Shown: positions 9,519 to 24,098 of the stretch, one piece after another
Position numbering within the stretch: position 1 is the stretch's first letter
Layout: each line of letters begins with the position of its first letter
Virus record (IMG/VR): IMGVR_UViG_3300027631_000101
Span: 1 to 28,408 of that record
DNA length: 28,408 nt
Direction: 5' to 3' (one strand)
DNA from: a virus
Made by a program: the position numbers and the translations under genes
The notes under the pieces: generated by a model
Seen by the model: only the letters and a program-made list of their open reading frames with translations
Told to the model about the DNA's origin: nothing
The model's database searches: none

Positions 9519-9910
9519 TTGTTCAGAACGCAGTAAATTGTTTGTCATGTGGAGATCTCATCATCTCTAAACATCGTCATGACTTTGTAAATTGCACTTG
9601 CGGTGCTGTATGGGTAGATGGCGGTCAGGACTACCTGCGTCGTGTAGGTGACTTTGAAAACGCCGTCGACTTGTCTTGGTCACTGCCAGACAAGTTATAT
9701 TTTGATTGTGCTGATGCTGCTGGCCTTGCTATGGATAGCGGTCGTAATACTAAAGGCATCGCCAATGCAGTGATGCGTACTCTTCGTGAAGCTGGTCGAG
9801 TGATCGCCGAAGGTGAACAAAGAATTCTAGCTCATAATCCTCGTATGGATGAGATTATGGTCGAAGAAGCCGATGGCACCATCAATCGTTATAAGAAAGT
9901 TGTAGAATGA
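9515..9910 (+). CDS. Zinc-ribbon protein (DUF7695-like)
   Basis: A 131-aa protein. Residues 9-45 form a zinc ribbon, CLSCG...CTCG (C9, C12, C27, C29), followed by VDGGQDYLRRVG. This ribbon plus the DGGxDYLRR signature recurs in small phage and bacterial proteins (DUF7695-like, from memory). The C-terminal ~70 residues are helical (NAVMRTLREAGRVIAEGEQ) and have no recognised match. Start and stop both overlap neighbours by ATGA, so it sits between the SWIM protein and the ketoacyl synthase in one coupled operon. Confidence 0.75.
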   Translation: MIVQNAVNCLSCGDLIISKHRHDFVNCTCGAVWVDGGQDYLRRVGDFENAVDLSWSLPDKLYFDCADAAGLAMDSGRNTKGIANAVMRTLREAGRVIAEGEQRILAHNPRMDEIMVEEADGTINRYKKVVE

Positions 9911-11016
9911 AAGAAGCATGCATCGTCGGCTTTGGAATGATCGATGCGTTAGGTGATAATCCCATCGATTGTTGGGAGAATATGCTTAATGATCGAGACT
10001 TCCATAAACCTATCGATCCTCATGTTCATGAAGGCCACAATCTTAAAGTTAAGTACGGGTTTTATCCTGAAATTGATATCGATGAAGAATTACAACCTCG
10101 AGCAGTAGCTTATGGTATGCATGCGGTTGAGCAAGCTTTACACATGGCAAATTTGCCGCATTCATCGAATGTAGGTGTCATCTTCTCGACTCTTTTAGGC
10201 GGCAACTCGACAAAAGCAAAGTTAGATGCCGAAGGTCGAAAGATGAAACCAAAACAGATCCTTCGCTCAACGATGGATTATCTCTGCAGTCAAATCTCAA
10301 TTAAGTATGGATATACTGGTATCAATACCATGGTGTATTCTGCTTGTGCTACAGGTTTGGTAAGCATCGAATATGCTATGCGAATGCTCGATGAGTATGA
10401 CTATGTGATCGTAGGCGGTTCTGATGCTGGCGTAAATCACATGGATCTCTACTTCTTCTCGATTATCAAGGCGATCGGTTCGAAGTCGATGCCATTCGAT
10501 AAGAATCGCGACGGTTTTATTATGGGTGAAGGTGCAGGTTGCATCATCCTTCAGTCGAGAGAAAAGGCCGAAGCGATGGGTTCGAAGGTATATGCTCGCA
10601 TCACTGGAGTTTCGAATGCTTCAGATGCACACGATCCGACTGCACCTTCTGGAGCCGGAGCTCGTCTTTGCTTGGAGAAGCTGGATCTCGAAGGAGTCGA
10701 CTCAGTCAACTCGCATGGAACCAGCACTCCACTCGGAGATGTGGTAGAGTATGACGTGGTTCGCGAGTTTACTGATGCACCGATCTATTCCAATAAAGGA
10801 AAAATTGGACATACTTTCGCTGCAGCAGGTGTACTTGAAACAATTTACAGTGTACTGTCTATTCAGAACGGTGTGATTCCTCATACCGCTGGTTGTCAAG
10901 ACACTGATATGGATGTGGTGATGGAGAACATCGAGACAGATGTCAAGAAAGTTCTTGTCAATTCATTTGGATTTGGTGGTAAGTGTTGTTCAATTATTGT
11001 TGAAAAGGAAAAGTAA
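9907..11016 (+). CDS. Beta-ketoacyl-ACP synthase (FabF-like)
   Basis: A 369-aa thiolase-fold condensing enzyme of the KAS I/II type, which extends acyl-ACP with malonyl-ACP. All catalytic parts are present: nucleophile C147 in SACATG, H270 in SHGTSTPLGD, K297 and H302 in SNKGKIGHTF, and the FGFGG loop near 355. The FabF marker FDKNRDGFIMGEGAG is also intact. It is about 40 residues shorter than typical FabF (~412 aa), with the shortfall spread out rather than a deletion. No ACP or other fatty-acid gene is near, so it would use host acyl-ACP. It could change membrane lipids or make a specific acyl product. Its start overlaps the zinc-ribbon gene. Confidence 0.93.
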   Translation: MKEACIVGFGMIDALGDNPIDCWENMLNDRDFHKPIDPHVHEGHNLKVKYGFYPEIDIDEELQPRAVAYGMHAVEQALHMANLPHSSNVGVIFSTLLGGNSTKAKLDAEGRKMKPKQILRSTMDYLCSQISIKYGYTGINTMVYSACATGLVSIEYAMRMLDEYDYVIVGGSDAGVNHMDLYFFSIIKAIGSKSMPFDKNRDGFIMGEGAGCIILQSREKAEAMGSKVYARITGVSNASDAHDPTAPSGAGARLCLEKLDLEGVDSVNSHGTSTPLGDVVEYDVVREFTDAPIYSNKGKIGHTFAAAGVLETIYSVLSIQNGVIPHTAGCQDTDMDVVMENIETDVKKVLVNSFGFGGKCCSIIVEKEK

Positions 11017-14268: not shown

Positions 14269-14874
14269 ATGATAAAGAAACGATTTAGAGAGTTTGTTGG
14301 TAGTGGTACACTCACGATATTCGATATCGATGAGACGCTGTTCCATACATATGCAAAGGTTGCCGTTGTCAAAGATGGCAAGGTTGTTCGAATGCTAGAC
14401 AACCAAGAGTTCAACACTTACAAGCGTAAGAAGGGTGAAACCTACGACTTCGGAGAGTTTGCTAACGCAGAAGTATTCCGCAAGTCATCGAAGCCTATCA
14501 CTCGTATGGTTGCTAAAACGAAAGCTATCTTTGCCAACTCTCGTAAGAATCCTCATAGTCGAGTGATTATCTGTACAGCACGAGCTGACTTCGATAACAA
14601 GGATATCTTCCTTCAGACGTTTCGAGATCATGGTCTACCTATCGATAATATCCATGTAGAACGAGCTGGTAACCTGAAGATCGACTCTTCGGCAGAAGCC
14701 AAGAAGATCATCTTCCGTAAATATATAAATACTAAGAATTACGTAAAGCTTCGGTTGTTTGATGATGCTCCTAGCAATCTTCAGGCATTTCTTTCGTTGA
14801 AGAAAGAGTTTCCTGATATTACGTTCGAAGCCTTCTTTGTAAATCCTGATGGATCGGTAAAAACAGTACGATGA
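14269..14874 (+). CDS. HAD-superfamily phosphatase
   Basis: A 201-aa HAD phosphatase. Motif I is FDIDETL (D19, D21), motif II ICTAR (T103), motif III lysine lies in SAEAKK (145/146) and motif IV is LFDDAPSN (D165, D166). The family hydrolyses phosphate esters through an aspartyl-phosphate; relatives include the phosphatase half of T4 polynucleotide kinase. The short cap suggests a large or polymeric substrate, but this is inference. There is no obvious SD, and the early-type promoter would start RNA at the ATG. Its stop overlaps the next gene (ATGA), a nucleotidyltransferase-like protein, so end repair of nucleic acid is one possible role. Confidence 0.85.
   Translation: MIKKRFREFVGSGTLTIFDIDETLFHTYAKVAVVKDGKVVRMLDNQEFNTYKRKKGETYDFGEFANAEVFRKSSKPITRMVAKTKAIFANSRKNPHSRVIICTARADFDNKDIFLQTFRDHGLPIDNIHVERAGNLKIDSSAEAKKIIFRKYINTKNYVKLRLFDDAPSNLQAFLSLKKEFPDITFEAFFVNPDGSVKTVR
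14724..14731 (+). promoter_or_regulatory. Possible internal late promoter TATAAATA
   Basis: An exact TATAAATA followed by CTA, very close to the longer T4 late consensus, lies inside the HAD gene. It could give late transcripts for the next two genes only. Chance in AT-rich coding DNA is possible. Confidence 0.35.
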
Positions 14875-16040
14875 CAAGTTTTAGAAATTTCCTTGCAGAA
14901 GAGCTTGACGAAACTAAGCTGAAGCATCTTGAGCATGCCGAAGATCACGTGATCAATGCTGGCCATGAAGGCTTTTCTCATGCCTATCACAATCTCAAAG
15001 ATGTGCATGACAGGTTGACAGGCAAGAAGAACGACACAAGAATCACCATGAAGTATGATGGTTCTCCTTCTGTGGTATTCGGTCGTCATCCTGAAACTGG
15101 TCGTTTCTTTGTAGCATCGAAGTCTGCCTTTAACAAGAATCCAAAGATCAACTATACGCTAGAAGATATCGAGCGTAACCATGGTCATGCCCCTGGCCTC
15201 GTATCGAAGCTACGAGCTGCTTTACAGCATCTTCCAAAGGTAACACCAAAGAAGGGTGTTTTCCAAGGCGATATCATGCACACTGCTGAGGACGTGCATG
15301 AATCTGATGGGCGTGTACACTTTACACCTAACACCATCACTTACTCTGCTCCGAAAAATTCAGCACATGGTAAGGCTGCTCTCAACTCGAAGATTGGCGT
15401 AGCTATTCATACCAAGTATAATGGTAAGAACCTCGAGGATATGCAAGCCGAGCACGGCGCTCAGCTAAATGACTTTGGATTGCACAAAGACGTGCATCTG
15501 ATTTCGACAGAACATCATCTCGATAACATCAAGTTCACGCCTCAGAATCGCGAGCGCTTTGCAAAGGCTATGACTGCAGCTGCAGCACATAACAAAAAGG
15601 CAAAGCCTGAAACTTATGAAGCTATCAAAGGCCATGAGATTCCTTTGAAAACTTACATTAATCATACTGTTCGTACTGGTACTAAGCCTAGCGTAGAAGG
15701 TTTCATGAACCACTACATGAAGGCACATCAGAAGAAGATCGAAGGTGTGAAGATGGCAGCATCGAAGGCATCTAAGACTGCTGCGATGGAATCAGACATC
15801 GGTCACGTTCAACGTAATCGTGCTCACTTTGAAAACGTTCTGAACCAGCACAAGCATCTGCAAAAAGCAAAGGATATTCTTGCGCATACGCTGTCAAGCT
15901 CTGCGGAGTTTGATCACAGCATTAACGGCAAGAAGTCGAAGCCTGAAGGATTCGTAGTAGTCAGACATAATCGTCCTACTAAAATCGTAGATCGCGCTGA
16001 ATTCTCGGCTGCCAATTTCAATAAGGTTAAAGCTCAATGA
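14871..16040 (+). CDS. KxDG nucleotidyltransferase-like protein (DUF6267-like)
   Basis: A 389-aa protein with ligase-type nucleotidyltransferase signatures: K61-Y-D-G64 with SPSVVF (motif I), FQGDIM (131-136, motif III-like), PEGFVVV (E359, motif IV) and TKIVD (K371, motif V). This order fits covalent nucleotidyltransferases (DNA/RNA ligases, capping enzymes). T4-like phages carry relatives as DUF6267 (from memory). The N-terminus, MTSFRNFLAEELDE, looks like a T4 capsid-targeting sequence (MKTYQEFIAEA in T4 internal proteins), with a gp21-type site after LAE. A histidine-rich middle separates motifs III and IV. ATGA overlaps couple it to both neighbours. Ligase activity is inferred. Confidence 0.8.
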   Translation: MTSFRNFLAEELDETKLKHLEHAEDHVINAGHEGFSHAYHNLKDVHDRLTGKKNDTRITMKYDGSPSVVFGRHPETGRFFVASKSAFNKNPKINYTLEDIERNHGHAPGLVSKLRAALQHLPKVTPKKGVFQGDIMHTAEDVHESDGRVHFTPNTITYSAPKNSAHGKAALNSKIGVAIHTKYNGKNLEDMQAEHGAQLNDFGLHKDVHLISTEHHLDNIKFTPQNRERFAKAMTAAAAHNKKAKPETYEAIKGHEIPLKTYINHTVRTGTKPSVEGFMNHYMKAHQKKIEGVKMAASKASKTAAMESDIGHVQRNRAHFENVLNQHKHLQKAKDILAHTLSSSAEFDHSINGKKSKPEGFVVVRHNRPTKIVDRAEFSAANFNKVKAQ

Positions 16041-16648
16041 AATCGATTCATATCACACAAGGACGATTCAATCCTGTTCATGCAGGCCACGAGATGGTCG
16101 TCAAGCATGTGATGGCAGCTGCCAAGAAAGAAGGCGCAGATCATAAGATCTTGACGACTGGATCTCATGATGCCAAGAAGAATCCTCTGACACCTGAGCA
16201 GAAGGTCAAGCACCTTTCTCGTGCTGTCAAGGGTGCACATGTAGAGGCGATGACGAAGGAACATCCGACTCTGCTCCATCAGATGTCGAAGCTGCACAAA
16301 GCTGGTTACACACACGTGACTATGCATGTCGGTTCTGATCGTGTTAAAGAGTTTCATGATTTACTTCATAAGTATAACGGTGCAGATATGAAGCACGGTC
16401 ACTACAACTTCAAGAGCATTAAAGTCAAGTCAGTAGGCGGTGAACGTAAAGAAGGCGGAGGTGGAATTGAATCTGCTTCTGGTACGGCTATGCGTAAGCA
16501 CGTTACTGCAGGTGATAAGGAATCATTCCATAAGATGGCACCATCGGGAATGAGTAAAGCCCACAAAGATGAGTTATATCACGATGTCCGCAAAGGCATG
16601 GGTGTGAACGAATCATTCATTGTCAGATTTAAAAACTGGATTAGTTGA
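16037..16648 (+). CDS. HxGH-class nucleotidyltransferase
   Basis: A 203-aa protein of the cytidylyl-/adenylyltransferase superfamily. GRFNPVHAGHE carries the HxGH motif (H15, H18), and SGTAMR (148-153) is the second, ISSTxxR-like motif. Members join a nucleotide to phosphorylated small molecules: NMN (NadM), pantetheine phosphate or glycerol phosphate. NMN adenylyltransferases are known in T4-like phages such as KVP40. The substrate here is not readable from motifs. The C-terminal MGVNESFIVRFKNWIS is an unusual aromatic tail. It is coupled to the preceding KxDG gene by ATGA. Confidence 0.85.
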   Translation: MKSIHITQGRFNPVHAGHEMVVKHVMAAAKKEGADHKILTTGSHDAKKNPLTPEQKVKHLSRAVKGAHVEAMTKEHPTLLHQMSKLHKAGYTHVTMHVGSDRVKEFHDLLHKYNGADMKHGHYNFKSIKVKSVGGERKEGGGGIESASGTAMRKHVTAGDKESFHKMAPSGMSKAHKDELYHDVRKGMGVNESFIVRFKNWIS

Positions 16649-16736: not shown

Positions 16737-18893
16737 ATGGAAGATAAGAAGAATAAACCGGTTGATACGAAGCAGTTAAAAAAGCCAACCGGCACGTCTG
16801 TAACTGGCAAACCACTTGATGGCATCGAGATCCGTCCTCAGCTCAAAGGTCTCGGCAATCGCCAGCACAACGAGGATACCGTAGTCCTAACTGACACTCT
16901 CGCTGAGAAGAAAGCACTGACACTCGTTCAGCGCCAACGCAGAGCGCGTGCTCTTCGAGCTAAAGAGCCGAAGATGCAGAGAGCCAAAGAAGTTGCTCAA
17001 CACAAACTCGCCTCGGACGAAAAGCTAAAGGCTCGAGCAATTGTCAAAGCAAGAAACATGGTCAAGATGAGGTTTGCAGCTCGGAAGGGAACTCCTTATA
17101 CCGAGCTCACCACATCTGAAAAAATTCAAGTCGATAAGGTAGTCGATAAGAAGGTCAAGCTGATCAGAAGATTAGCTGCTCGCCTTCTACCTGCTCTTCG
17201 TAAAGCAGAAGTCAATCGTCTCGCTTCATTCCAATCGGGATCAAAAATCCAGCACGCGACTGCTGCCCCGGTCAACGAAGAATTCAATACAATCGTAGAG
17301 AGTCTTGACAATAAGACTTCTATGCAACTCGTTGACATTATCAACGATTCTATCGATGCTCTCAACGAGAATAATAACTCGATGGGTATCACGCTGAAGA
17401 GACTGCTAAGCGCTGTCCTTCCAGAAGACGTAGCAACTTCTACACTTATGAAAAAAGCCGAGAAGACCGGCATACCGTTCTCGACCCTCAGAGAGGTGTT
17501 CGAGCGCGGTTCTTTTGCGTGGGAAGACGACGGCAAAACTACGCAAGAACAGTTCTCATTCTCAAGAGTGAATAGCTACATTGCCAAAGGCAGAGCGTGG
17601 ACACTCGATGCAGATCTTCGCGAAGAGAAGGAAGTCAACGACAAGCTCGATAAAATGTTCGAATCCGCTTATCATACTGGCTTGAGTGCTTCGACTGCTA
17701 AGGCACGCGAATCTCACTGGAAAAAGATGGAAAAGTATTCTGATCGAGATCCACGTGCATATCAAGATGCGCCAGGTGACAAGGCAGCTCGTAAGAAAAA
17801 TATGCCTCAATCTGTACATACGAAGAAGTATCATGCGATGTACGGCGAAGAGATCGAGCAGCTGGTCAATGAAGCCTCTGACGGTCTTGCTGCAAAGGCC
17901 AGCAAATCAGGTGTTTCCTTATCTACTCTGAAGAAAGTGTATGCTCGCGGTGTTGCTGCATGGAACAGCGGTCACCGTCCAGGAACTACACCACAACAGT
18001 GGGGTATGGCTCGCGTAAACTCTTACATCACAAAGGGCAAAGGCACTTATCACGGCGCTGATAAGGATCTGCATGAAGATGATGTAAATGAAGGCCTATG
18101 GGCTAACATTCATGCTAAGCGTAAGAGAATTAAAGCTGGATCTGGCGAACGTATGCGTAAGCCTGGATCGAAGGGCGCTCCGACTGCCGCGGGTTTTAGA
18201 TCAGCACAAGAAGCAGTCGAAGATCAAGTAGGCAATCAGATTGCTGATACAGGAAGACATGGTAAAGTAAGATATGTCGGTGTAAGAACTGCTGCTCATA
18301 AAGAAACTGGTACACAAGAGCGTCAAGAAGTTCAGTATATTAAGCGTCATAAGATGCATACGAAAAGAGAGACTGACGCCGATCCGCAACAGATTCGTAT
18401 CGCTCAGGATCAGATCAAAAAGAAAGTGATCGACGAGTCGAACAACACGCCATACGTCAAGCCTTTCACAGAAAAAGGTAGTACAGAACAACGTGGTTGG
18501 AAAGCTTCGAACAAGCATGGCAAGGTAAAGTACTTTGGCATGGACTTCAAGGCTTCTGCACATAAGCATGCTGGAATCAATGAAGATACATCAGCAGATC
18601 GCGAAGTTGGTACGAAATCGCTCGTCAAGAAGTATCAAAAGGAAACTCCTGGACAGAAAAAAGCAGATCTGAACGAGTCGTTCAATATCGAGTTCGCCGC
18701 TGGAATTGGTGTAGGTCTGACTGCTAACGAATGTGGTATCTTCATCAAGCCAGGGTTCGAGATGCATCCTGATGTCGTAGAAGAAGATATCGAAAGAAGA
18801 GGCGACTTCAAGATGGTTAAAGTTCGCACTCCAAAAGGATATGTTTGGAAAAAAGTTCGCCGCGAAGTTGATATCGAGAGGGACGCAGAATGA
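16737..18893 (+). CDS. Large basic repeat protein, probable internal virion protein (DUF5824-like)
   Basis: A 718-aa highly basic protein. Residues about 55-165 are a helical lysine/arginine-rich region (RRARALRAKEPKMQRAKEVA) typical of virion proteins of T4-like phages (from memory). Two copies of a DUF5824-like domain follow at about 238-285 and 384-434, each ending RVNSYI-KG. Another short repeat, HGKV(R/K)Y(V/F)G, is at 508 and 594. The C-terminus is acidic, then basic. LAE and LNES motifs could be sites for the prohead protease. It is expressed late, behind TATAAATA and the SD-hiding hairpin. Packaging in the head is inferred from charge, repeats and neighbours. Confidence 0.8.
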   Translation: MEDKKNKPVDTKQLKKPTGTSVTGKPLDGIEIRPQLKGLGNRQHNEDTVVLTDTLAEKKALTLVQRQRRARALRAKEPKMQRAKEVAQHKLASDEKLKARAIVKARNMVKMRFAARKGTPYTELTTSEKIQVDKVVDKKVKLIRRLAARLLPALRKAEVNRLASFQSGSKIQHATAAPVNEEFNTIVESLDNKTSMQLVDIINDSIDALNENNNSMGITLKRLLSAVLPEDVATSTLMKKAEKTGIPFSTLREVFERGSFAWEDDGKTTQEQFSFSRVNSYIAKGRAWTLDADLREEKEVNDKLDKMFESAYHTGLSASTAKARESHWKKMEKYSDRDPRAYQDAPGDKAARKKNMPQSVHTKKYHAMYGEEIEQLVNEASDGLAAKASKSGVSLSTLKKVYARGVAAWNSGHRPGTTPQQWGMARVNSYITKGKGTYHGADKDLHEDDVNEGLWANIHAKRKRIKAGSGERMRKPGSKGAPTAAGFRSAQEAVEDQVGNQIADTGRHGKVRYVGVRTAAHKETGTQERQEVQYIKRHKMHTKRETDADPQQIRIAQDQIKKKVIDESNNTPYVKPFTEKGSTEQRGWKASNKHGKVKYFGMDFKASAHKHAGINEDTSADREVGTKSLVKKYQKETPGQKKADLNESFNIEFAAGIGVGLTANECGIFIKPGFEMHPDVVEEDIERRGDFKMVKVRTPKGYVWKKVRREVDIERDAE

Positions 18894-19183
18894 TCGGATT
18901 TAAGGAATTCATCACTGAGCGTGGCGAAGATTCGAAAGGTCACTTCATCGCCACCGAGAAGGGTGCAGGTATGACAGCGAAAGGTGTAAAAGCCTATCGT
19001 GCCAAGAATCCTGGATCAAAGCTTCAGACAGCTGTCACTGGCAAAGTAAAGCCTGGATCTAAAGATGCAGGTAGACGTAAGTCTTTCTGCGCTCGTATGA
19101 GTGGAGTCAAAGGTCCGATGAAAGATGAAAAAGGTAGACCGACTCGTAAAGCAATGTCATTAAGAAGATGGAAGTGTAACTAA
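18890..19183 (+). CDS. DUF6321-like small basic protein with capsid-targeting-like N-terminus
   Basis: A 97-aa, very basic protein. GAGMTAKGVKAYRAKNPGSK and SFCARMSGVKGPMKDEKGRP are the signature of DUF6321, a small family common in phages (from memory). It starts MIGFKEFITERGED, which fits the capsid-targeting pattern of T4 internal proteins and has an ITE cleavage-like site. The basic core would suit DNA binding inside the head. It overlaps the preceding gene by ATGA, and its stop adjoins the dps start. Function of the family is not established to my knowledge. Confidence 0.85.
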   Translation: MIGFKEFITERGEDSKGHFIATEKGAGMTAKGVKAYRAKNPGSKLQTAVTGKVKPGSKDAGRRKSFCARMSGVKGPMKDEKGRPTRKAMSLRRWKCN

Positions 19184-19620
19184 TGGAAGAGATTACAAAC
19201 CCTTTAAAGGTCGCGTTTGCAGACACCTATGCACTTTACGTGAAGGCTCAGAACTATCATTGGAATGTCGAAGGACCGATGTTCCCGATGTATCATGAAT
19301 TTTTTGGTAATATCTATGAAGAAGTTGGTGGTGCTATTGATCGTTTTGCCGAAGAGATTCGAGCCCAAAAATCTTATGCTCCGGCATCGTTCGGAAGATT
19401 CAATGAACTATCAACAATTGAAGATGAATCTCTTATTCAGTTACTTCCAATAACCATGGTAACTAATCTTTTCGAAGATAATAATCGAGTTCTTGCTTCT
19501 CTTCAACTTGCAAGAGATGCAGCAGACAAATACAATCAAAACGGTCTTGTTAACTTCCTTGAAGAGAGACTCGATCAGCACAACAAACACGCATGGATGC
19601 TCCGCGCATCGATGAAATAA
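19183..19620 (+). CDS. dps: Dps-family ferritin-like protein
   Basis: A 145-aa four-helix protein of the Dps family, which forms 12-subunit shells that oxidise and store iron and protect DNA. NYHWNVEGPMFPMYHEFF gives H26 and H38, and IDRFAEEIRAQ gives D53 and E57. The spacing (12, 27 and 31 residues from H26) is the same as in E. coli Dps H51/H63/D78/E82, so the ferroxidase site is complete. The lysine-rich N-terminal DNA-binding tail of E. coli Dps is missing. It lies within late virion-type genes, so protection of phage DNA or packaging is possible. Start and stop are tight against its neighbours. Confidence 0.93.
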   Translation: MEEITNPLKVAFADTYALYVKAQNYHWNVEGPMFPMYHEFFGNIYEEVGGAIDRFAEEIRAQKSYAPASFGRFNELSTIEDESLIQLLPITMVTNLFEDNNRVLASLQLARDAADKYNQNGLVNFLEERLDQHNKHAWMLRASMK

Positions 19621-19654: not shown

Positions 19655-21580
19655 ATGTTAACGAATAAAATCACAGGATTCAGTGCTGATCTTCTTAATA
19701 CTGTTCGTAGTATTCTCGGAGAAGCGAAGAAATGTCCAGCTGACTGCGAGTGCGAAAAGTGCGAAGCAGAAGAGATGGAAGAAGGCCATATGCCTACTGC
19801 CGACGAACCGACTGATGCAAATAAAAAGACAGCGCAGAAGATTCGCGACATGATGGCCAAAGAAAAGAAGCCAGTCAAGGAAGAGACTAAAGAAGATCTT
19901 CCTTTTGAAGGTCCTTATAGAAAAACTGGTGAACGCAAGGACGAATACGGCAACAAAGTAAAGAATGTTGCTAAGCATCTTGCGAAGAAGGCAATGAAGG
20001 CTAACGAAGATTTAGAACATACTAACTGTGGAACTCCCGAATGCTGTGGTCAATGCGATACGCCTGGACAGATCGATGAGATTTCTGCAAAGACTGCAGT
20101 AAATGCTTATGCCAAGCGTAATGCCAAAGCATTCAACGACGGTCAATACGATGATGAAGCTGAAAAAGACTATAACAAGTTAGACAAACAAGGTGATAGA
20201 ATTCAAAGAAAGTTTGGTGACAAAACTGTTCGTAAAGCACAGAGTGCCGCTTATAAGAAGATCTTTGGAGAAGAAGTCGAAAATCTCGATGAAACTGCAA
20301 AGATCGTTGCTCATCTTCAAAAGCGTTATGGTGATAACATTCGTAAGAGCCATGTTCGCTCGGCAGCTAGCGATTTCGGTGTTGATGCAGCGAAGTTAGC
20401 AAAAGCAGTACGTACTAAGTTGGGCAAGAATATGCTTGGTGAAGAAGAGCAGATCGATGAGATCTCGAAGGGAACACTTGGTCGTTACATCAACAAAGCC
20501 AAAGATTCTATTGATATGGCTTCTTATAGACAAGGCCACAAAGAAGCTCATGGCAGTTCTTCGAAGCCACTTGAAAAGAAGTTGACAAAGCGTCATAAAG
20601 GTATTTCAACTGCAGTCAATAAATTGACCAAGGAAGCTTCTGGCGACCAACACATTGAAGTAACACACGCCGTTACTGGTCAAAAGAAAAAGGTTCCTGT
20701 TCATCCTGATAATGCTTTTAAAGCTCTAAACCATTATAAGAGTCTTTCGTCAACGAAGTCGGCTCGTATTGTTTCAGAAGAATCCGAGCAGATCGATGAA
20801 CTCTCAAAGGGAACAATGGGTCGTTACATCAACAAGGCTGCTACAAAAATGGGTAGTCAAGGTGTTACTGCTGGTCTGAAGATTGCTGCAGACGAAAAGT
20901 CAAGCAAGAACTTTAAGGATATGGGCAAGCGCGAAAAGGGTATCAAACTCGCCGTCAATAAGCTGACAAAGGAAGAGCAAGACTTCATCGACTCGCTGAA
21001 CGATGCTGATATCGAACAGATCGATGAGATCTCAAAGGGTGCTGCATTGAAGTATCTTTCTGCCAATAAGAAAGACGATACTAAGGCTCGTGAAACTGGC
21101 GATTATGACAGAATGACTAAGCGTATGCGTGGTACTGATATGGCTGTTCGTAAGTATACTGCTAAGCCAGGTTCTAAGTCTGTTCGTGTTCCTGCCACCG
21201 AAGAAGTAGAAATCACTGAAGCGCGCGGGCGTCCAAGAAAGGCTGGCGCCAAGGATTTCACGATCCATCCGAAGACAAAAGAAAAGCTCATGCATAATAA
21301 TCCTGAGCACATGAAAAAGATCGAAGCTCTTCAGAAGAACAAAGTTCTTGAGAAGCCAAAGATTGAAGCTGGTCAGCATATCATGAACCAGCTACAGAAA
21401 GCTAAAACATCGATGCTAGGTGGTAGCACGATTCACTTTACACATGGTGACTCGAAGCACGTTTCTGGTACTCATGCTGCAAAGCTTCTGTCTAAATATG
21501 CGGGCATGAAACCGAATGAGAAAGAAGACTTCCAAAAGAAGATCGGCCACTCACACGAACAACTAATGAAGCACGTATAA
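19655..21580 (+). CDS. Repeat protein, possible internal head polyprotein
   Basis: A 641-aa, lysine/glutamate-rich, mostly helical protein. After a cysteine-rich stretch (CPADCECEKCEAEE) come repeats headed QIDE(I/L)SK: residues 139, 266, 379 and 455, with a related ENLDET near 209. The copies at 20450 and 20789 are nearly identical in DNA over ~50 bases, so duplication is recent. Each head contains I-D-E, which fits the (I/L)-x-E sites of the T4 prohead protease gp21, so processing into smaller internal peptides is possible. The C-terminal ~100 residues are a separate region (GRPRKAGAKDFTIHPK). It is late, from CATAAATA with a hidden SD. A virion role is inferred. Confidence 0.78.
   Translation: MLTNKITGFSADLLNTVRSILGEAKKCPADCECEKCEAEEMEEGHMPTADEPTDANKKTAQKIRDMMAKEKKPVKEETKEDLPFEGPYRKTGERKDEYGNKVKNVAKHLAKKAMKANEDLEHTNCGTPECCGQCDTPGQIDEISAKTAVNAYAKRNAKAFNDGQYDDEAEKDYNKLDKQGDRIQRKFGDKTVRKAQSAAYKKIFGEEVENLDETAKIVAHLQKRYGDNIRKSHVRSAASDFGVDAAKLAKAVRTKLGKNMLGEEEQIDEISKGTLGRYINKAKDSIDMASYRQGHKEAHGSSSKPLEKKLTKRHKGISTAVNKLTKEASGDQHIEVTHAVTGQKKKVPVHPDNAFKALNHYKSLSSTKSARIVSEESEQIDELSKGTMGRYINKAATKMGSQGVTAGLKIAADEKSSKNFKDMGKREKGIKLAVNKLTKEEQDFIDSLNDADIEQIDEISKGAALKYLSANKKDDTKARETGDYDRMTKRMRGTDMAVRKYTAKPGSKSVRVPATEEVEITEARGRPRKAGAKDFTIHPKTKEKLMHNNPEHMKKIEALQKNKVLEKPKIEAGQHIMNQLQKAKTSMLGGSTIHFTHGDSKHVSGTHAAKLLSKYAGMKPNEKEDFQKKIGHSHEQLMKHV
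20069..21070 (+). repeat. In-frame repeats headed QIDE(I/L)SK
   Basis: Heads at 20069, 20450, 20789 and 21017, spaced about 381, 339 and 228 bases. The 20450 and 20789 units share GAGCAGATCGATGA and GGTCGTTACATCAACAA. A fifth, diverged unit is in the gene at 23445 (head at 23784). Confidence 0.8.
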
Positions 21581-23056: not shown

Positions 23057-23445
23057 TGATTGAAAAACTTGATGATTCGAATTTCTTGATATATGCTGCT
23101 AAGTGTTATGATAATCCACAATGTTTTGAGGATCTTGAATTTTACGAAGACTTAGCTCGATTCAAATATATTAAGAGATTACTTAATCGCTATGAAGAGT
23201 CCGGAGATTTAAAAGATAGATTAATCGTCAATCATCTCGTTGTTCTGTACAATGTGTTCGGTAACGAAGCTACCAGATTACTCTTCTTTAAGTTAGATGG
23301 CTATCATCATATGTTGAAGCCGTTCATTATTTTATTAGGAAGACTTCCTGAGAAGATACCGAATATAGGCATAGATAATAAAACACTTATTACTAACGAT
23401 ATTGTTGCAGACGAAGTCATAGTACAAAAACTAAGGAAGATTTAA
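23056..23445 (+). CDS. Conserved T4-like phage protein (DUF7207-like)
   Basis: A 129-aa helical protein. FLIYAAKCYDNPQCFEDLEF, then EDLARFKYIKRLLNRY and LIVNHLVVLYNVFG form a pattern conserved in T4-like phages (DUF7207-like, from memory). No catalytic motif is seen. The TAATGA junction overlaps the previous stop, and its own stop overlaps the next start, so it is co-translated with the structural genes. Function unknown. Confidence 0.8.
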   Translation: MIEKLDDSNFLIYAAKCYDNPQCFEDLEFYEDLARFKYIKRLLNRYEESGDLKDRLIVNHLVVLYNVFGNEATRLLFFKLDGYHHMLKPFIILLGRLPEKIPNIGIDNKTLITNDIVADEVIVQKLRKI

Positions 23446-24098
23446 TGGCCAACAAAGAAAAGCAAGAGTATGACTACGAAGGCGATATGGCCATGTCACA
23501 ACTCAAGTCTATCATTGCCAACGCTCAGCGTATGCATGACATGCTGAAGGTAGATACAAATCTTCCTGAATGGGTTCAGTCGAAGATCACATTAGCTGAA
23601 GACTACATCTCTACTGCTTCGAATTATATGCAAGGCGAGATGAGCGAAGCCGTAGACATGACTAAAAAGAATCAGGCGAAAGCGATGAAAGCTGGCGCCA
23701 ATCTAAAAATGGATTCGGATACTGGAACACCAGATCACTTCACTGCTGCGGCGCGCCGCAAAAAAGGTTTACCAGAAGAAGTTCAGATCAATGAGCTTTC
23801 TAAAAATACGGTAATTTCGTATCTAAATAAAAACAAAAAAGATGTTTTTAATAAAATATTACAAGTAGGTAAAGCTCGTAAAAAAGAAGATTCTGTAGAA
23901 GTCAAAAAAATATCTAATAAAATTGTTAAAAGACACAACGGCGAGCATTTAGCAAAAGACAAACTTAGAAAACTTGCTAAAGAAGAAGTTGCGGCGAATT
24001 CTGTTGGTGCTGGCAATGTAGCGGGTCTACAAGGTGAACCGCCGGTAAATAAGAAAAAGAAAAACGTGATGTCTTTCAATAGATTTATGAAGAAATAA
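23445..24098 (+). CDS. Conserved virion-type protein with inserted repeat module
   Basis: A 217-aa protein. Residues 1-70 (EYDYEGDMAMSQLKSIIANA, LPEWVQSKITLAEDYISTA) are a strongly conserved segment of T4-like phage proteins (from memory). Residues from about 114 carry the QINELSKNT head also found in the protein at 19655. The C-terminus (VGAGNVAGLQGEPPV, MSFNRFMKK) again looks like the conserved family. The DNA for the module, about 23800-23940, is very AT-rich (26 G+C in 23821-23940) against 27 of 60 at 23461-23520, which points to a transferred insert. Late and virion-associated by context. Confidence 0.8.
   Translation: MANKEKQEYDYEGDMAMSQLKSIIANAQRMHDMLKVDTNLPEWVQSKITLAEDYISTASNYMQGEMSEAVDMTKKNQAKAMKAGANLKMDSDTGTPDHFTAAARRKKGLPEEVQINELSKNTVISYLNKNKKDVFNKILQVGKARKKEDSVEVKKISNKIVKRHNGEHLAKDKLRKLAKEEVAANSVGAGNVAGLQGEPPVNKKKKNVMSFNRFMKK

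Follow-up and report, generated by a model that had tools for sequence, protein, structure and literature searches.

A capsid-targeting-like N-terminus on a predicted RNA-ligase-like protein of a T4-like phage

The DNA analysed here, referred to as the window, is a stretch of 28,408 nucleotides from an IMG/VR virus record (IMGVR_UViG_3300027631_000101, positions 1 to 28,408). It belongs to a T4-like phage with gp43, UvsX and gp41 and gp61 type genes, and the best matches of its polymerase are cyanophages (e.g. Bellamy, 49.6% identity). One of its genes encodes a DUF6267 protein whose first ten residues resemble the capsid-targeting sequence (CTS) of T4 internal proteins. We consider it likely, with a probability of about three in four, that this protein is a capsid-targeted, prohead-protease-trimmed and injected nucleic-acid-joining enzyme. 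Of the steps in this reading the tag has the strongest support; packaging would follow by analogy, and substrate and purpose are what we infer. The features concerned are the following.

14871..16040, + strand: DUF6267 protein, predicted RNA-ligase-like covalent nucleotidyltransferase (PF19782, motifs, AlphaFold2 model, VIA)
14871..14900, + strand: capsid-targeting-like propeptide MTSFRNFLAE, residues 1-10; F4 and F7 are the targeting positions, L8-A9-E10 the predicted prohead-protease site with a predicted cut after 14900
14901..14912, + strand: ELDE, a second, overlapping L-x-E (L12-D13-E14) seen in the sequence, possible alternative cut

In the proposed mechanism residues 1-10 would form a propeptide that targets the capsid, as in T4 internal proteins. 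After its synthesis the enzyme would dock on the prohead scaffold core via F4 and F7, a gp21-type prohead protease would cut after LAE-10 or LDE-14, and the trimmed RNA-ligase-like enzyme would be left free inside the head. It may then enter the host with the DNA and join nucleic-acid ends at the earliest stage of infection. Packaging is suggested because relatives of the phage have gp21 and a gp23 with an LxE site, and because a tagged cytidylyltransferase was detected in four cyanophages. The 3'-phosphatase-like and nicotinamide mononucleotide (NMN)-adenylyltransferase-like neighbours are probably part of the same group of cargo proteins, since the genes overlap, distant orthologues are tagged and the cyanophage cytidylyltransferase is found in virions.

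The N-terminal tag and its conservation

The open reading frame (ORF) at 14871-16040 (+) encodes 389 amino acids, and its opening 14 codons (14871-14912) read MTSFRNFLAEELDE. Its ATG shares bases with the stop codon of the preceding gene (ATGA). No alternative start was found, as none of the seven in-frame codons back to the previous stop is ATG, GTG or TTG, and the start is therefore not in doubt.

The initial annotation had described this N-terminus as following the capsid-targeting pattern of T4, a description which holds. The N-termini of T4 ipII and ipIII, as given in the T4 record, are MKTYQEFIAE and align to MTSFRNFLAE without a gap. The tag was written as the regular expression (regex) M-x(0-4)-[FYWLI]-xx-[FYW]-[LIVMF]-x-E, which matches after 12 of the 2719 internal Met residues in the ORFs of these phages and T4. 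At this background rate the chance of one match among about 45 genes is ~0.18, and that of two matches in the window ~0.017. A single match is thus only weakly significant, and it is the conservation across relatives which lifts the tag above chance.

Conservation was followed in the best 80 of at least 596 DUF6267 relatives in viral contigs (set 1), which reach down to 52% identity and have 40 distinct N-termini. The regex fits 39 of these 40 (77/80 loci), while shuffled N-termini gave a mean of 0.42 and a maximum of 4 in 1000 shuffles. Positions were tabulated for 49 sequences distinct at the DNA level, taken from the 77 motif-bearing loci. The aromatic/hydrophobic targeting position 4 is F in 47 and L in 2 of them, the targeting position 7 is F in 44 and Y in 5, and position 8 is L, I or V (42/6/1), encoded by ten different codons. 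Position 10 is E in all 49 of these motif-bearing sequences, giving the [LI]-x-E site at residues 8-10, and the residues between the conserved positions take 8 to 10 identities. According to a review of the mutagenesis of the T4 IPIII tag, targeting depends on residues 4 and 7 and processing on 8 and 10 (PMC9026906). The positions conserved in the DUF6267 tag are the same four.

As a control, the T4 region from 60 to 110 kb was scanned with regex classes A and B; ipII and ipIII were recovered together with one non-annotated start, and ipI, whose propeptide is longer, was missed. In the AlphaFold2 model of the DUF6267 protein the tag lies outside the folded domain, which begins at about residue 18. 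The predicted local distance difference test score (pLDDT) of residues 1-18 is below 50 (blocks of 32 and 44), and a short helix at residues 4-9 lies inside this low-confidence part.

A second set comprised the best 80 of 386 relatives of the HTVC008M DUF6267 protein, two loci of which had no anchor. These proteins mostly start with MELLNEDKNT, MLLVEDKNT or MDLLNEDKNT, and the regex fits only 4 of their 24 distinct N-termini.

Tagged proteins in cyanophage virions and the prohead protease

A cytidylyltransferase/NMNAT gene (T4-GC190) adjoins the DUF6267 gene in the window, in S-SM1 and in S-SZBM1. Its product carries the tag in several cyanophages and starts with MKKFSAFLNEAE in S-SM1, MRFRQFIIEA in S-SZBM1, MKSFLQFLKEA in S-SCSM1 and MKNFSSFLTEA in S-CREM2. 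Going by the accessible parts of the proteome papers, it was detected in virions of S-SM1 (PMC3037559), listed among the virion proteins of S-SZBM1 (Table 1 of PMC9146016), detected in S-SCSM1 virions (PMC9602691 and a note in the record) and listed for S-CREM2 (Table 3 of PMC10665884). The tagged protein was thus detected by mass spectrometry (MS) in 4/4 published cyanophage virion proteomes. The S-PM2 protein has no tag and was not detected according to the accessible text of PMC3037559, an older proteome that also missed known structural proteins. The tag itself is not mentioned in the accessible parts of these four papers (PMC3037559, PMC9146016, PMC9602691, PMC10665884).

For S-CREM2 and S-SZBM1 all regex hits were compared with the detected proteins, a result which depends on the regex version. 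We rely on the 'strict' version, which was set before the S-CREM2 scan but with S-SZBM1_140 and S-CRM01 already known; hits were assigned to annotated starts by eye. Five annotated starts of S-CREM2 match, and four of these proteins were detected by MS against 48/214 of the others (p 0.012). Those detected are the S-adenosylmethionine (SAM) hydrolase gp6, the kinase gp14, gp136 and the cytidylyltransferase gp154; gp199 is tagged and undetected. Pooled over both phages, 5/8 tagged proteins were detected against 77/429 (p 0.0073). A 'class A' regex, defined after the strict hits had been seen, gave 5/5 in S-CREM2 and 1/4 in S-SZBM1 (pooled p 0.0019), and the strict and loose versions together gave 6/12 (p 0.013).

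Tag-like stretches were also seen at other places in cyanophage proteins. The virion-detected S-CREM2 gp12 (L111 7704-10313), annotated as Cas9, has FASFMAEA after an extension of 18 residues and ends with FRDFLN. In S-CRM01 (L088 10206-14784) a run of genes has tag-like starts, namely a kinase with MISFDQFLSEKK followed by MKKLDQFLTEKE, MKLFNQFFKEAE and MRQSRWAKWSRGTEVKLSLDSFIKEAA. The 69-residue 'virion protein' SSCSM1_93 of S-SCSM1 (L197 3627-3836) has the tag core in its C-terminus RTFKEFLEYIE.

No head genes were found within the window. Among 14 long relatives, an S77 (gp21-type) prohead protease is present in three, and the same three contain gp23. One of them, G002, encodes a DUF6267 protein 93% identical to that of the window. 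Where T4 gp23 is cut (FLTE/AEIGG), the gp23 proteins of the relatives have an LxE in MLGE/GDG, ALFE/ATH and ALLE/YSG.

The C-termini of the gp21 proteins are a side observation. Within the last 24 residues [FYWLI]-x-x-[FYW]-[LIVM] occurs in 12 of 15, always as F-x-x-[FY]-[LIM] (e.g. FENFLNKISKI, FHEFLQSL), and in 0/113 other 24-residue windows; shuffling gave a mean of 1.1 and a maximum of 5 (2000 shuffles). The genes counted include L083-L085, L203-L210, L212 and those of S-SZBM1 (L109) and S-CREM2 (L113), with the stop-interrupted L211 dropped. This core is absent from the gp21 tails of T4, S-CREM2 and S-CRM01.

The ligase-like enzyme and its neighbours

Membership in DUF6267 is clear (PF19782, E 5.6e-99, 332.5 bits against a cut-off of 27). 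Ten residues, K61, D63, G64, E359, G360, V362, K371, V373, D374 and R375, are invariant in 19/19 aligned DUF6267 proteins, and we take them to be motifs I (KxDG), IV (EGxV) and V (K) of covalent nucleotidyltransferases.

15051..15062, + strand: motif I, K61-Y-D-G64, with the predicted AMP-accepting lysine (K61, D63 and G64 invariant in 19 sequences)
15945..15956, + strand: motif IV, E359-G-F-V362 (E359, G360 and V362 invariant)
15981..15995, + strand: motif V, K371-I-V-D-R375 (K371, V373, D374 and R375 invariant)

The AlphaFold2 model has a pLDDT of 87.9 and a predicted template modelling score of 0.84. All 50 matches listed by VIA are ligases, which points to an adenylyltransferase fold; the best is Naegleria RNA ligase (Z 9.3, 178 residues, 3.4 Å), and T4 Rnl2 and the trypanosome editing ligase each reach Z 8.1. 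A search with the sequence against PDB sequences gave nothing meaningful (best E 0.08, a tRNA synthetase), and NCBIfam and PADLOC gave no useful match. Judged by motifs and model, the protein looks like an RNA-ligase-like covalent nucleotidyltransferase. The putative nucleotidyltransferase of the initial annotation is thereby borne out at the level of prediction.

Three further genes of the window are of interest here.

14269..14874, + strand: HAD phosphatase, T4 Pnkp 3'-phosphatase-like (VIA; phrog_415)
16037..16648, + strand: cytidylyltransferase / NMN-adenylyltransferase-like protein without N-terminal tag (PF01467)
18890..19183, + strand: DUF6321 protein with the tag MIGFKEFITE/RGED (PF19846, E 6.5e-21)

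The HAD protein of 201 residues consists of one HAD domain (model pLDDT 89.1) resembling the 3'-phosphatase domain of T4 Pnkp, with D19, D21 and T23 of the DxDxT motif invariant. The T4 Pnkp phosphatase is the top VIA match of the model (5uj0, Z 14.0 over 133 residues at 2.5 Å; 1ltq, 13.2), and the protein matches phrog_415 polynucleotide kinase (E 4e-9). Foldseek alone ranks AphA-type acid phosphatases best and T4 Pnkp at place 22. The P-loop kinase domain of T4 Pnkp is not present in the 201 residues, so that the protein is Pnkp-phosphatase-like only and not a Pnkp. In a nucleic-acid repair pair such as T4 Pnkp/Rnl, the 3'-phosphatase heals the ends and the ligase seals them. The N-terminus of the HAD protein, MIKKRFREFVG, keeps both aromatic targeting positions (RFREFVG) and lacks the Glu; two distant orthologues have the full tag (MKSFKDYLIEE, MKTFKTFLTEA).

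For the cytidylyltransferase of the window the NMNAT models score below their cut-off. Its C-terminal tail is VNESFIVRFKNWIS (16604-16645), a shape which is kept in most set-1 loci and absent in L034-L036 and L042. With an xxE site followed by F-x-x-W-I, the tail resembles a mirrored targeting tag.

The DUF6321 protein starts with MIGFKEFITERGED. In counts which include overlapping pieces of three contigs, and thus some phages twice, its tag is found in 23/36 usable loci (10/18 distinct N-termini), against 3/55 for the HAD gene and 8/79 for the cytidylyltransferase gene; the neighbourhood controls Dps (0/30), DUF5824 (0/45) and ORF19655 (0/17) have none.

Further observations concern the surrounding genes. 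The Dps/ferritin-like protein at 19183-19620 is untagged and adjoins tagged genes. In L099 (G010:56842-57708) the cytidylyltransferase and DUF6321 are fused, with GMKDFKTFLAED at the junction. Repeats of EQIDE[IL]SKGTLGRYINKA, each starting with an [IL]xE triplet, occur at 19655-21580 and 23445-24098 of the window and at 124173-125495 of G002. The idea that ORFs 16737, 19655 and 23445 encode polyproteins found no support in the density of such triplets, which is not significant: their LxE/IxE z-scores against shuffles are only 2.1, 1.1 and 2.0 and the gp61-type primase reaches 2.6. A beta-ketoacyl synthase (FabF-type) gene is located at 9907-11016, with both ketoacyl-synthase domains above cut-off.

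Weight of the evidence and comparison with known systems

Several observations weigh against a packaged and injected DUF6267 enzyme. The DUF6267 proteins of S-PM2, S-SZBM1, S-CRM01 and S-SM1 carry no tag, and the untagged one of S-SZBM1 is not in the table of 30 virion proteins in the accessible part of PMC9146016. With the strict regex only 1/3 tagged S-SZBM1 proteins was detected (p 0.36), the table lacking the tagged SSZBM1_191 and SSZBM1_192. Proteins detected in CsCl-purified particles may have been carried over, as the S-CREM2 authors state themselves (PMC10665884). No virion proteome was found for the clade of the window phage, and among 50,697 phage records there is no isolate of this clade, the best isolate match having 34.6% identity. 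The gp21-type protease was found in only three of the 14 long relatives, whose records may be fragments. A Foldseek search of the enzyme model against PDB gave nothing below 0.001 (best E 0.12), and its top matches are ligases.

The Glu-less core F..[FYW][LIVM] at either protein end was tried as a sign of packaging and rejected. It was sought within 45 residues of the N-terminus or 24 of the C-terminus, with six detected proteins missed by the ORF caller (2/52 and 4/30). Of the proteins with this core 8/34 were detected, against 68/406 of the others (p 0.22; 5/14 against 45/203 in S-CREM2, 3/20 against 23/203 in S-SZBM1), a result which likewise counts against the packaging argument. The sequences of the gp21 tails and of VNESFIVRFKNWIS suggest a docking motif that either end of a protein could carry, which is kept as a hypothesis since the Glu-less core failed to predict detection in virions.

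The nearest rival is repair of the packaged DNA within the head. The tag would load the enzyme into the prohead, where it would seal DNA nicks during packaging or maturation and would not be meant for the next host. The tag evidence fits this equally, and DNA nick repair would be a fitting task for a ligase-like protein next to a 3'-phosphatase-like one. However, the T4 proteins with such tags, IPI-III and Alt, reach the host by injection and are active there (PMC12373910, PMC9026906); we regard nick-sealing in the head as unlikely. Less probable again is an N-terminal helix which docks another partner in the cell, e.g. the replisome, with an incidental Glu. The gene does sit between the gp41 and gp61 homologues, in a replication-type neighbourhood, and the short core, often present at protein ends, is uninformative alone. 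Against an incidental Glu stand its invariance at position 10 (49/49 distinct motif-bearing sequences) and a position 8 that stays L/I/V; the full pattern also recurs on proteins of unrelated families (DUF6321, HAD, cytidylyltransferase, kinase, SAM hydrolase), several of which were detected by MS in virions. A functionless N-terminus, arisen by chance or inherited as a relic in one clade, is very improbable: a single match is weak and the set-1 sequences share ancestry, but down to 52% identity four positions are held and the residues around them vary, and the codons of position 8 have changed synonymously.

The capsid-targeted and injected enzyme is the reading we prefer. It can be extended, more tentatively and with clear doubt, to an end-healing-and-sealing kit which T4-like aquatic phages would inject. 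Such a kit would consist of the 3'-phosphatase, the RNA-ligase-like enzyme and the NMN-adenylyltransferase-like protein, and might, before phage genes are expressed, mend RNA of host or phage, or nicked phage DNA, that defence nucleases have cut. A movable tag would sit on different members in different lineages: here on the N-terminus of DUF6267, in cyanophages on that of the cytidylyltransferase and in distant relatives on that of the HAD protein, perhaps also in the C-terminal tail of the window cytidylyltransferase. The prohead protease itself would have the same docking core, F-x-x-[FY]-[LIM], in its C-terminal tail.

That a CTS can load cargo is known, and recruitment of various proteins by a CTS in T4-like phages has already been proposed (PMC9026906; PMC12373910 on Ip1-Ip3). 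The principle was established in T4, and the open literature searched treats it for the internal proteins of T-even phages. In the open-access literature searched no paper was found which links a CTS to cyanophages, DUF6267 or a ligase; 'capsid targeting' with 'cyanophage' returned one T4 review and 'DUF6267' none. A ligase-like cargo and the spread of the tag outside the T-even phages look new. If the tag works in aquatic T4-like phages, head cargo could be predicted from sequence; proteins that already bear the pattern are a ligase-like enzyme, a cytidylyltransferase, a Ser/Thr-type kinase, a SAM hydrolase and a DUF6321 protein. If the head indeed carries a ligase next to a 3'-phosphatase, nucleic acid would be repaired by the phage upon entry.

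The closest known system is T4 IPII/IPIII. Shared with DUF6267 is a 10-residue N-terminal tag with aromatics at 4 and 7 and [LI]xE at 8-10; a gp21-type protease is encoded by close relatives of the window phage. In contrast, the T4 cargo is small and anti-restriction, whereas here it would be a predicted nucleic-acid-joining enzyme of 389 residues; the window phage stands outside the T-even group, and packaging is drawn by analogy. The T4 Alt ADP-ribosyltransferase is likewise an enzyme loaded into the head, of a different class and with a short propeptide, MELITE, cut at ITE-6 (PMC5694885). The pelagiphage-type DUF6267 starts MELLNEDKNT and MDLLNEDKNT look like MELITE, which is a resemblance only; the window protein has the IPIII-type and not the Alt-type propeptide. 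With T4 Rnl2 and the Naegleria RNA ligase the enzyme shares motifs I, IV and V and the predicted fold (VIA Z 8.1 and 9.3; 173-178 residues), at an identity of only 9-15% and with a helical insert of ~120 residues before motif IV in DUF6267. We know of no capsid tag on T4 Rnl2. In the cyanophages S-SM1, S-SZBM1, S-SCSM1 and S-CREM2 it is the cytidylyltransferase (T4-GC190) which bears the tag, whereas here it is the DUF6267 protein.

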